This document shows, piece by piece, positions 37,336 to 42,540 of a stretch of DNA of 60,364 nt. Numbering within the stretch: position 1 is the first letter of the stretch; the number at the start of each line of letters is the position of its first letter. The notes below the pieces were generated by a model. The model saw only the letters and a program-made list of their open reading frames with translations. It ran no database searches and was not told the DNA's origin. Origin of the DNA: Bacteroidales bacterium (GTDB taxonomy: Bacteria; Bacteroidota; Bacteroidia; Bacteroidales; JAFGHD01); NCBI GenBank assembly GCA_016939365.1, contig JAFGHD010000087.1, positions 1-60,364 of the forward strand, written 5' to 3'. A program made the position numbers and the translations under genes.

Positions 37336-38565
37336 ATGGAAATTCAGGCGATCAAACAACGTTTTGGGATCATCGGCACATCGCCATTGCTGGACCGGGC
37401 GATCCATATTGCCATGCAGGTATCCCCGACCGATCTGACCGTTCTGATCACAGGGGAGAGTGGTGTGGGTAAAGAGTTTTTTCCCAAGATCATTCACCAG
37501 TTGAGTGCCAGGAAGCATGGTGCCTACATTGCAGTCAACTGTGGAGCCATACCCGAAGGGACCATAGATTCAGAGCTTTTCGGACATGAAAGGGGATCCT
37601 TCACCGGTGCACACGAAGCACGCAAGGGATACTTCGAAGTCGTAAACGGAGGTACCATTTTCCTGGATGAAGTGGCGGAACTGCCCCTCTCAACGCAGGT
37701 TCGCCTGTTGCGTGTGCTGGAAACGGGAGAATTTCTCAAGGTGGGTTCCTCCAACGTGCTGAAGACAGATGCCCGGATCGTAGCCGCCACCAATGTGGAC
37801 ATCCTCGAACTCATCGGCCTGGGGAAATTCAGGGAAGATCTCTATTACCGCCTGAATACGGTACCTATTTATGTACCCTCCCTCAGGGAACGAAAGGAGG
37901 ATATCCACCTGCTGTTCAGGAAATTTGCGGCTGACTTCGCGGAAAAATACCGCATGCCTCCTGTCCAGCTGGATGAGGAATCCATAAAGCTGCTCACCAG
38001 CTACCGCTGGCAGGGTAACGTGCGCCAGTTGAAAAACATTACCGAGCAGATTTCCATAATAGAGAAAAACCGGAACATCTCCGCAGGCACACTGGAAAGA
38101 TATCTTCCCGATGCACATTTCAGGGATTTGCCGGTGCTATACAGAAGAGAGGAAGAGAAGAAGGAAATCAATGAACGTGACCTTCTGTATCGTGTACTGT
38201 TTGATATGAAGCGGGATATCAATGACCTGAAACGGATCGTGGGGGACATTGTCCAGAATGAAAATCTGATCAAGGAGCTTCAGCAAACCAATCCACAGCT
38301 GCTGTCCAGGATTCTGAACGAAGGGATTGAGCCCGAAAGGACCAGGCCAGGGGATGAATTCCACCCGGAGCAAGAGGAATCCTTAACAGAACCGTTTGAG
38401 GAATCAGAAGTGATTGAGGAATCCCTCTCCCTCCAGGAAAGGGAAATCGACCTGATCAAAAAGGCATTGGCCAGACATCAGGGGAAGAGGAAGAATGCCT
38501 CCCGCGAACTGGGCATCTCAGAAAGAACCCTCTACAGAAAAATCAAGGAATACAATATAAACTGA
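37336..38565 (+). CDS. Sigma-54-dependent transcriptional activator
   Basis: A 409-residue bacterial enhancer-binding protein that uses ATP to open promoters held by RNA polymerase with sigma-54. The AAA+ domain starts almost at the N terminus: Walker A GESGVGKE, the sigma-54 contact loop GSFTGA (87-92), Walker B GGTIFLDEVAELPL and the arginine-finger region. There is no receiver or GAF domain ahead of it, so it is not a two-component partner. A Glu-rich linker (about 265-355) joins a Fis-type helix-turn-helix at the C terminus (NASRELGISERTLYRKIKEY). It heads a run with lptE and secG. A sigma-54-like promoter lies 2 kb downstream, before groES. Confidence 0.95.
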   Translation: MEIQAIKQRFGIIGTSPLLDRAIHIAMQVSPTDLTVLITGESGVGKEFFPKIIHQLSARKHGAYIAVNCGAIPEGTIDSELFGHERGSFTGAHEARKGYFEVVNGGTIFLDEVAELPLSTQVRLLRVLETGEFLKVGSSNVLKTDARIVAATNVDILELIGLGKFREDLYYRLNTVPIYVPSLRERKEDIHLLFRKFAADFAEKYRMPPVQLDEESIKLLTSYRWQGNVRQLKNITEQISIIEKNRNISAGTLERYLPDAHFRDLPVLYRREEEKKEINERDLLYRVLFDMKRDINDLKRIVGDIVQNENLIKELQQTNPQLLSRILNEGIEPERTRPGDEFHPEQEESLTEPFEESEVIEESLSLQEREIDLIKKALARHQGKRKNASRELGISERTLYRKIKEYNIN

Positions 38566-39120: not shown

Positions 39121-39981
39121 ATGAACGTCAGGCAGCTGACCGGCTATTTTAGCAATCCCGCAACTCTGCAAAGGGACAATATCACGGACCTGGAACAGCT
39201 TACAGATGAGTATCCCTACTGGCAGGGTGCCCGGTTACTGTTTGCACTGTCTCTTTTCATGGAACAGGACTACAGATTCAGTCAACAGCTGAGAATTGCC
39301 GCGGTTTATGCCGCAGACCGCACCTTGCTCAAACAGCATATTCTTTCGTTGGAACAGAGGGTCGATAGGGCAGATGCACCACTGCAACCGGCTCCTCCTA
39401 TTTCCGGACCAGGGAGAATCCCTGAAGATGAAGAGTGGGATCAAAACAAAAGCGAAAGGCTGTCAGACCTTCTTCATGAGCTCGAGGCAGAGATCAGATC
39501 GTCCCTGGGGCGTCACGAAAAGGATGCTGCCAGTTCCAACTATCTGTTGGTCCAGGATATAATTTTCAGACTGGAGGACATGCTCAAAGGTCTCCGCATT
39601 GAACGGGGGTATAAAACGGAAAATTTAGGTGGGGCTTATACATCGGTTGCCGGGGAATACTCCCTCGAGCATCTGGCTGACATCAACGAACAAAATCCGG
39701 CTATGCGGTCCCAAAGCGAGATCATCGACCTGTTCATACGATCTGATCCGAGAATGCCGCCTCCCTTAAAAACGGATTTCTTCAAACCGGAGGAGTCAGC
39801 AAAACGCAGTCTGGTTGATAACGAGGAGGTCATCTCGGAAACCCTCGCTAAACTTTATGTCATCCAGGGTAACCTGAAAAAGGCCATCTCTATCTACAGA
39901 AAATTAAGCTTGATTTTTCCGGAAAAAAGCAGTTACTTTGCAGCCCGGATAAAAAATCTGGAACAAGAGTTATCCGGATAA
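39121..39981 (+). CDS. Hypothetical protein with C-terminal TPR
   Basis: A 286-residue protein without a signal peptide, probably cytoplasmic. The C terminus carries one clear TPR-like helix pair (ETLAKLYVIQGNLKKAISIY, then RKLSLIFPEKSSYFAARI). The middle is acidic and probably flexible. Proteins of this type commonly lie between lptE and secG in Bacteroidota, but no function is established. It begins 36 nt after lptE and ends 18 nt before secG. Confidence 0.85.
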   Translation: MNVRQLTGYFSNPATLQRDNITDLEQLTDEYPYWQGARLLFALSLFMEQDYRFSQQLRIAAVYAADRTLLKQHILSLEQRVDRADAPLQPAPPISGPGRIPEDEEWDQNKSERLSDLLHELEAEIRSSLGRHEKDAASSNYLLVQDIIFRLEDMLKGLRIERGYKTENLGGAYTSVAGEYSLEHLADINEQNPAMRSQSEIIDLFIRSDPRMPPPLKTDFFKPEESAKRSLVDNEEVISETLAKLYVIQGNLKKAISIYRKLSLIFPEKSSYFAARIKNLEQELSG

Positions 39982-39999
39982 AAATCAATTAATTATAAC

Positions 40000-40350
40000 A
40001 TGGGAGCATTCGTTATTGTGGCGGTACTGATCATAGTGACCTGCGTGTTGCTGACACTGATCGTCCTGGTGCAGAGTTCCAAAGGTGGGGGTCTTGCCTC
40101 GAATTTCTCTTCATCCAATCAGTTCATGGGAGTGAGAAAGACTGCGGATTTTCTTGAAAAAACAACATGGACCCTGGCGATCGTCCTCCTGGTTCTCAGC
40201 CTGATATCGATTTTCGTAATTCCCCGTGGAACCAGATTGCAGACACAGACTGATACTGAGCTCAGGGAGCAGATCGAAAATGCACCGGACCTTCAGCCTG
40301 TTGAAGATTATGTTCCACCCCCTGACCAAACGGAAACAACAGAAGAATAA
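40000..40350 (+). CDS. secG: Preprotein translocase subunit SecG
   Basis: A 116-residue SecG. Two membrane helices (about 3-24 and 53-74) are joined by the conserved loop VLVQSSKGGGLASNF. A Pro- and Glu-rich cytoplasmic tail follows, longer than in E. coli. SecG assists SecYE-SecA in moving proteins across the inner membrane. It closes the activator-lptE-TPR run and is followed by a hairpin terminator. Confidence 0.95.
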   Translation: MGAFVIVAVLIIVTCVLLTLIVLVQSSKGGGLASNFSSSNQFMGVRKTADFLEKTTWTLAIVLLVLSLISIFVIPRGTRLQTQTDTELREQIENAPDLQPVEDYVPPPDQTETTEE

Positions 40351-40370
40351 ATCAGGAGTAGTTACCGGAA

Positions 40371-40406
40371 AATGTCAGAATGTTATGACATTCTGGCATT
40401 TTTTTT
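40371..40406 (+). terminator. Rho-independent terminator after secG
   Basis: AATGTCAGAATGT (40371-40383) pairs with ACATTCTGGCATT (40388-40400) over 13 bp including one G-T pair, with a 4-nt loop. A run of eight T residues (40399-40406) follows. It separates secG from the groES promoter. Confidence 0.85.
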
Positions 40407-40522
40407 GTCATGAAGTGACCTCTTGGGAACCCACTCCCTGTCAAGCCCTCTACATCCTTCCCTCAGCCAGCACCAAAGGACATGTATATAACCGGACGAT
40501 GGCGGGCACGCTCAATTCAATT

Positions 40523-40538
40523 TGGCACAAATTATGCT
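40523..40538 (+). promoter_or_regulatory. Putative sigma-54 promoter of groES-groEL
   Basis: TGGCACAAATTATGCT matches the sigma-54 consensus TGGCAC-N5-TTGC with one mismatch. It keeps the invariant GG (40524-40525) and GC (40536-40537) exactly 10 bp apart. Predicted transcription starts near 40549, about 55 nt before the groES ATG. No CIRCE-type operator is present. A sigma-54 activator gene lies 2 kb upstream. Confidence 0.65.
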
Positions 40539-40603
40539 AAAGGCGCAACGTCGATCTGTTAGAATTGTCATTAAGAACCATTATACACTAAAAGACTAAA
40601 AGT

Positions 40604-40882
40604 ATGGAAAAGGTGAATGTTAAACCATTGGGAGACAGGGTTTTGGTGTTGCCTGCTCCCGCGGAAGAAAAAACAGCCGGGGGTATTATCATTCCTGACA
40701 CTGCCAAGGAAAAGCCTCAGAAGGGTGTAATTGTGGCAGTAGGACCGGGTACCAAGGATCAGAAGATGACGGTCAAGGCAGGTGATCAGGTACTATATGG
40801 TAAGTATTCCGGCACGGAGATCAATTACGAAGGGAAGTCGTATATGATCATGAAAGAGTCTGATATCTACGCAATTATTTGA
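40604..40882 (+). CDS. groES: Co-chaperonin GroES
   Basis: The 92-residue GroES caps the GroEL ring during protein folding. The signature begins [20 protein letters not shown], followed by the mobile loop ([16 protein letters not shown]) and the conserved VAVGPGTKD and [10 protein letters not shown] segments. groEL follows after 26 nt in the same unit. The apparent promoter is of sigma-54 type, which is unusual for this operon. Confidence 0.98.
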
Positions 40883-40908: not shown

Positions 40909-42540
40909 ATGGCAAAAGACATTATTTTCGACCTGAAAGCCAGGGAAGCACTGAAAAAAGGTGTGGACTCCCTGAGCAATGCGGTAAAGGTTACTCTGGG
41001 CCCCAAGGGCAGAAATGTGATCATGGACAAATCCTATGGTTCACCTGTGATCACAAAGGATGGTGTCACTGTGGCCAAGGAAATTGAGCTCAAGGACGGT
41101 GTGGAGAACATGGGAGCCCAGATGGTCAAGGAGGTCGCTTCCAAGACCAATGATATTGCGGGTGACGGCACCACCACAGCCACCGTTCTGGCTCAGTCCA
41201 TTTTTACCACCGGACTGAAGAATGTTACAGCAGGCGCCAACCCGATGGACCTGAAACGTGGCATTGACAAGGCAGTTGCCGAGGTGATCAAGTCCCTTAA
41301 AAGTCAGACCAAGCAAATCGGTGATGAATCTGAAAAGATCGAGCAGGTTGCTACTGTCTCGGCCAACAACGACAGCACTATCGGTAAGCTGATCGCAGAG
41401 GCGATGGGCAAGGTGAAGAAGGATGGGGTCATCACCATTGAAGAGGCCAAGAGCATGGAGACTTCCGTTGACCTTGTCGAAGGAATGCAGTTTGACAGGG
41501 GTTATATTTCGCCCTACTTTGTTACGGATACCGAGAAGATGGAGTCCGTGTATGAAAATCCATTCATTCTCATCCATGACAAAAAGATCTCCGTGATGAA
41601 GGACCTCCTTCCCATTCTCGAGAAGATTGTTCAGACAGGCAGGCCTTTGCTCATCATCGCAGAGGACGTGGAAACGGAGGCGCTGGCTACGCTGGTGGTC
41701 AACAAGTTGCGGGGTGGCCTCAAAGTGGTGGCTGTGAAAGCTCCCGGTTTCGGTGACAGAAGAAAAGAGATGCTGGAGGACATTGCCGTATTGACCGGCG
41801 GAACTGTGATCTCCGAAGAGAAAGGATACAAGCTTGAAGACACCACCCTGGATCTTCTTGGAAATGCCGAGAAGATCACTGTGAGCAAGGATAATACCAC
41901 CATTGTCAGCGGCAAGGGATCCAAGGATTCGATCCATGCCAGGATCAATCAGATCAAAGCCCAGATCGAGGCCACTACCTCCGACTATGACCGTGAAAAG
42001 CTCCAGGAACGGCTGGCCAAGCTGTCAGGTGGTGTGGCGGTGATCTATGTGGGTGCTGCAAGCGAAGTGGAAATGAAGGAAAGGAAAGACCGTTTCAACG
42101 ATGCACTCAACGCAACCCGGGCCGCCATTGAGGAAGGAATCATTCCCGGCGGTGGTGTTGCATACATCCGTGCCGTTGACAGCATTAATAAACTGAAAGG
42201 TGATAATGAGGATGAAGATACAGGTATCGGTATCATTCTGAGGGCCCTGGAAGAGCCGCTGCGGCAGATCGTCGAAAATGCAGGCCTTGAAGGTTCCGTC
42301 GTGGTTCAGAAGGTGAGGGAAGGGAAAAATGACTTCGGCTACAACGCCCGGACGGATGTTTATGAGAACCTGTTTAAAGCCGGTGTCATCGACCCAACCA
42401 AGGTGGCCCGCGTAGCCCTGGAAAATGCCGCATCCATCGCCGGTATGCTGCTTACCACCGAATGCGTCGTGGTTGAGCGGAAAGAGGATAAGGAAGCCCC
42501 TAAAATGCCCCCGGGTGCTGGAATGGGCGATATGTATTAA
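40909..42540 (+). CDS. groEL: Chaperonin GroEL
   Basis: The 543-residue 60-kDa chaperonin. The correct start is ATG 40909 ([20 protein letters not shown]). Family marks include the ATP-binding [32 protein letters not shown] and [13 protein letters not shown], ending in the short tail GAGMGDMY. It is cotranscribed with groES and followed by an intrinsic terminator. Confidence 0.99.

Follow-up and report, generated by a model that had tools for sequence, protein, structure and literature searches.

The window, by which we mean the whole stretch of DNA analysed (60,364 nt, contig 100 of the Bacteroidota metagenome assembly G000), carries groES and groEL downstream of a gene for a sigma-54 activator, with an lptE-like gene and secG among those in between. 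The features of this part of the window, all on the plus strand, are:

37336 to 38565, plus strand: sigma-54 activator (enhancer-binding protein) with AAA+ domain (PF00158), lid (PF25601), Fis-type HTH (PF02954) and a GSFTGA loop
38572 to 39084, plus strand: lptE-like lipoprotein gene, a conserved neighbour (PF04390, E 2.3e-18)
39121 to 39981, plus strand: conserved protein between lptE and secG, without a Pfam match, with a homologue at the matching place in many loci
40000 to 40350, plus strand: secG (PF03840, E 3.1e-19)
40370 to 40410, plus strand: intrinsic terminator after secG, with a 14-bp stem, 4-nt loop and U run (-16.1 kcal/mol, z -5.73)
40386 to 40398, plus strand: candidate upstream activating site TGACATTCTGGCA (TGNCA-N3-TGNCA), roughly 157 nt upstream of the predicted start
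40523 to 40538, plus strand: putative groESL -24/-12 promoter box TGGCACAAATTATGCT, with GG at 40524-40525, N10 and GC at 40536-40537; predicted start at about 40549
40604 to 40882, plus strand: groES, 92 aa (PF00166, E 4e-33)
40909 to 42540, plus strand: groEL, 3' of groES and predicted, from its open reading frame and close position, to share its transcription unit

In bacteria groESL is normally under a heat-shock sigma factor or HrcA/CIRCE, CIRCE being the operator of HrcA, and sigma-54 promoters are mostly associated with nitrogen use and flagella. The initial annotation read the sequence before groES as a sigma-54 promoter with a single mismatch to consensus and exact GG-N10-GC spacing, separated from secG by a terminator and with a receiver-less sigma-54 activator encoded about 2 kb upstream, and each of these landmarks is indeed present. 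TGGCACAAATTATGCT, 65 nt from groES, departs from TGGCACRN4TTGCW only at position 12 (A for T), and from TGGCACGN4TTGCW at two positions; it has the -24 GG and the -12 GC, N10 apart, of a sigma-54-dependent promoter. The hairpin after secG was missed by a terminator scan and detected by folding. The activator open reading frame ends about 1.96 kb before the box, and a Pfam domain search found no N-terminal receiver in it. A sigma-70 promoter search found none here, and an Rfam search gave no match. Taken alone, the match of TGGCACAAATTATGCT is not significant, since such patterns occur at or near background: at up to three mismatches the window has 81 sites against 78 expected, and one-mismatch sites in the genome number 42 against 31 for a reversed control pattern.

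Conservation was assessed in 110 groES upstream regions from named genomes and further relatives, with minus-strand loci re-oriented and two duplicates dropped to leave 108. The pattern TGG[CT]A[CT]R-N6-G lies within 150 nt of the groES start codon in 103 of the 108 distinct Bacteroidota regions (median distance in this set 68 nt). This is far above chance, the shuffle mean being 0.7 (maximum 5); the other controls gave 3 on the opposite strand, 0 in reversed sequence and 1 further upstream. The five regions outside the pattern have variants such as TTAGCACGCTTTTTGCA. The initial annotation had suggested an alignment of this kind, in which loss of the motif from relatives with the same gene order would speak against it; the motif is instead conserved, being present throughout the orders sampled, whether or not secG and the activator adjoin, and also in three genomes (G060, G213, G028) whose groES is distant from the activator gene. 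The only same-genus genome (G001, locus L095) keeps the box as TTTTGGCATGGATTATGTC, with GT at -12. As in the window, groEL comes after groES in related loci. The box is asymmetric, with TGGCA fixed and a right arm without conservation beyond TG, which fits a -24/-12 element and not a simple operator dyad. A vegetative -33/-7 pair (TTTG / TAnnTTTG) is not conserved, occurring in only 8 of 108 regions; TAnnTTTG alone occurs in 19 of 108 (8.8 by shuffle), and no -7 element stands at a fixed spacing after the box. No other conserved promoter element was seen here before groES, and TGGCACAAATTATGCT is very probably a sigma-54 promoter of groESL.

CIRCE (TTAGCACTC-N9-GAGTGCTAA, up to three mismatches) does not occur in the window, nor was CIRCE found in the 108 Bacteroidota groES regions, and hrcA was not found in this genome; the locus thus resembles HrcA/CIRCE-controlled groESL in its target operon and in the position upstream of groES, and differs from it in these absences. 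HrcA was found in 0 of the 26 class Bacteroidia genomes sampled, in 0 of 6 genomes of family f120, and in 30 of the remaining genomes tested. In the sister lineages that have HrcA, groES is mostly preceded by CIRCE, without a -24/-12 box. Among HrcA-less sisters, seven f120 genomes and G099 have the canonical TTGG[CT]ACR-N4-TTGC before groES (e.g. TTTGGTACGGTAGTTGCA), and the textbook TTGGTACGN4TTGC is found at the corresponding groES place; overall, the canonical box was seen in two sister families lacking HrcA. Exceptions are G194 (CIRCE without a detected hrcA), G270 (neither) and G116 (the -24 half only), and in a few HrcA-containing genomes CIRCE is degenerate or unseen. Box and CIRCE are nearly mutually exclusive before groES. 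The presence of rpoN (below), the absence of HrcA and CIRCE, the canonical box in HrcA-less sisters and the lack of a conserved -33/-7 pair are together strong evidence for a sigma-54 promoter, which apparently took over the control of groESL from HrcA.

A similar box precedes dnaK: of 20 class Bacteroidia genomes, 19 have TGG[CT]A[CT]R-N4-TTG about 60-90 nt upstream of this gene, and the remaining one has the one-base variant CGGCACG. Of the reading given in the initial annotation, sigma-54 control of groESL is supported by conservation of the box, whereas the idea of an unusual local circuit does not hold, the box being near-universal in class Bacteroidia and common to dnaK. The box was not found before dnaK in f120. 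In two sister genomes with HrcA, G191 (L250) and G230 (L239), dnaK is preceded by a -24/-12-like box, which in G191 reads TGGCACGATGGTTGCA; dnaK may thus have come under sigma-54 before groES did.

We also note some boxes and genes apart from these operons: (i) A thioredoxin-glutaredoxin fusion gene has a -24/-12-like box, TTGGCATGCAAGTTGA, at 20 nt upstream, and after the fusion gene comes a diverged second groES-like gene (L172 1476-2375; G000:C39:15975-16874 in this genome); no groEL was seen beside this groES-like gene in L172, and second groES copies of similar kind occur in many relatives. (ii) A TGGTACGATGTTTGCA box lies 22 nt before an open reading frame resembling a small (ECF-type) sigma factor (L146, G000:C90:5906-5921). 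(iii) A public record titled as a Streptomyces griseus MAG (L042) has a Bacteroidota-type groESL and is probably a mislabelled genome.

Upstream of the groES box, TGNCA half-sites show a sixfold enrichment and form pairs with a spacing of 8. The resulting repeat, TGNCA-N3-TGNCA, is found in 71 of 108 Bacteroidota groES regions (shuffle mean 0.27) and 6 of 20 dnaK regions (0.07), and in 0 of 27 HrcA-containing outgroups. Only two such sites occur in the 60-kb window, one of them TGACATTCTGGCA, which forms part of the descending arm of the terminator stem after secG. At least 40 of the groES regions adjoin a secG whose terminator stem carries the repeat, and among regions without an adjacent secG it is still found in 16 of 40; the secG terminator may double as an enhancer. 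Terminators of secG carrying the repeat were also observed in many Bacteroidales and Flavobacteria.

The activator at 37336-38565 is one of seven in this genome. Its orthologue is full-length, the best match and well conserved in all 9 Bacteroidia genomes searched, where orthologues separate clearly from paralogues, and in G213 it is the only activator found. Beyond Bacteroidia, a comparison of activator and motif co-occurrence found full-length alignments only in some f120 genomes. The 33 orthologues in related loci all have GAFTGA or GSFTGA; LGISERTLYRKIK is conserved and the recognition helix invariant among them, which is what a single site fixed across the class would lead one to expect. 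We infer that this site is TGNCA-N3-TGNCA, which the activator would bind. Control of groESL by the neighbouring activator, as initially annotated, stands to the extent that this protein, with its conserved orthologues, is the best candidate; proximity is weak evidence, because groES keeps its box when far from the activator gene, as in the three genomes named above. On balance we lean towards this regulator acting on groESL.

The rpoN gene of this genome is an open frame of 502 codons, whose product has both PF00309, the activator-interacting domain, and the RpoN box, ARRTVAKYRE. Across Bacteroidota, all 247 genomes with a completeness of 90% or more have rpoN, and in a larger draw of 395 genomes it was found in 388. 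In G414 the groES box is kept and rpoN was not found in a 98%-complete assembly; this case and G482, also without an rpoN match, may reflect assembly gaps. rpoN-less genomes were set aside as a natural experiment on account of these possible gaps and the absence of tiny symbionts from the sample.

Most Bacteroidia groES boxes do not keep the -12 C, unlike textbook sigma-54 promoters. With rows aligned on TGGCA, position 13 is G in 95% and the next base is A in 59%, C in 27% and T in 13%; as doublets at -13/-12, the counts are GA 57, GC 28 and GT 17. The RpoN motif ARRTV.KYR is conserved, and its ARRTV, which reads -24, is unchanged between Bacteroidia and other classes. The HTH recognition helix, the part of sigma-54 that reads -12, is SRVANSK in all 15 Bacteroidia sequences compared, and none of 25 readable sequences from other classes (mostly SRVVNGK, some SRVVNSK) has alanine at that position. 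Since the helix change is a single evolutionary event, a tie between it and the relaxed -12 is only suggestive.

From these sequence comparisons we infer that sigma-54 would use the groES box. RNA polymerase with sigma-54 (RpoN) would transcribe groESL from 40523-40538, starting near 40549, and the promoter would require an AAA+ activator, the likeliest being the receiver-less regulator 37336-38565, bound at the upstream TGNCA-N3-TGNCA elements. Protein-folding stress would be the activating signal. The -24/-12 arrangement would then be the class-wide chaperone promoter of HrcA-less Bacteroidia, serving dnaK too.

The part of this proposal most exposed to an alternative is the identity of the activator. 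Sigma-54 could use the box while another of the seven activators drives groESL, leaving the neighbouring one to control lptE or further envelope genes; a role in the envelope is common among sigma-54 activators, and the box is kept far from genes of the 37336 type. Yet each of the nine Bacteroidia genomes searched has a well-conserved, full-length 37336 orthologue, in G213 it is the sole activator found, and its invariant recognition helix is what one fixed class-wide site would call for; we regard a different activator as the less likely case. Considerably less probable is that the box is an operator dyad, TTTGGCA-N6-TGCCAAA, for some other regulator, the real promoter being of the vegetative Bacteroidetes type (-33 TTTG / -7 TAnnTTTG). 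A few near-palindromic copies (L038 TGGCACAAAATGTGCC, L102 TGGCACAGTATGTGCC) and the excess of TAnnTTTG over shuffle would agree with this, but the right arm is not conserved past TG, -33/-7 pairs are rare with no -7 at a fixed spacing after the box, and the HrcA-less sisters have a textbook sigma-54 box at the corresponding place. The background-level counts in the window and near-background counts in the genome would even allow TGGCACAAATTATGCT to be a chance match, with groESL transcribed by readthrough from secG or from some promoter not seen here; this is hardly credible given the strong terminator after secG, and the comparison of 108 groES regions, with the box conserved in 103 and placed consistently relative to the start codon, led us to reject it. 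We thus retain a sigma-54 promoter with the 37336-38565 regulator as its likeliest activator.

Among known systems, the PspF/phage-shock promoter is similar in placing stress genes under sigma-54 and in having an activator without an N-terminal receiver; in the present activator the linker from the AAA+ domain to the HTH is longer and includes a conserved stretch similar to EREILYKVLFDMKSDLNDLKKL, and the targets differ. Its alignment to TIGR02974 runs along residues 12-405 and falls below the cut-off. Sigma-54 promoters are also known for rpoH in P. putida and ibpB in E. coli, where sigma-54 likewise feeds into heat-shock genes; there the sigma-54 promoter is accessory, whereas here no other conserved promoter element was seen before groES.

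That chaperone genes of Bacteroidota are under sigma-54 was already predicted in 2025 (PMC12316311, PLoS One). In the portions of that paper drawn on here, a sigma-54 chaperone regulon is predicted in Bacteroidota and Planctomycetota; GroEL, GroES, DnaK, DnaJ, GrpE and IbpA are placed under sigma-54 in Bacteroidota, the prediction for groES, groEL, dnaK, grpE and dnaJ covers Flavobacteriia, Bacteroidia and Cytophagia, and B. thetaiotaomicron groES is called sigma-54 dependent, citing Sabree 2009. The same portions do not describe the HrcA/CIRCE exchange, the TGNCA-N3-TGNCA repeat, a candidate activator or the -12 change; compared with these portions, the present analysis adds to the prediction the proposed HrcA replacement, the repeat, an activator candidate and the change in RpoN.

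We give even odds to a broader scenario in which the Bacteroidia ancestor exchanged HrcA, as the master regulator of groESL and dnaK, for a dedicated sigma-54 circuit consisting of the 37336 activator and TGNCA-N3-TGNCA enhancers. If so, RpoN would have become indispensable class-wide, with its -12 reader free to drift (RVVNGK to RVANSK), and the retention of rpoN in tiny endosymbionts such as Blattabacterium and Walczuchella would be explained. Walczuchella, Uzinura and Blattabacterium are reported to keep rpoN, a retention described as "unusual" in insect symbionts and given a tentative link to nitrogen, while the accompanying table gives rpoN as absent in Sulcia (PMC3971599); chaperone control by sigma-54 would account for such retention. 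The box, the repeat, the activator and the RpoN residues are now available as named parts for a simple test. If the proposal is true, the main chaperones of a class very common in gut and ocean are controlled by sigma-54 and an AAA+ activator instead of HrcA or a heat-shock sigma factor, and this would give a direct reason for the near-universal presence of rpoN in the phylum and for its survival in some insect symbionts.
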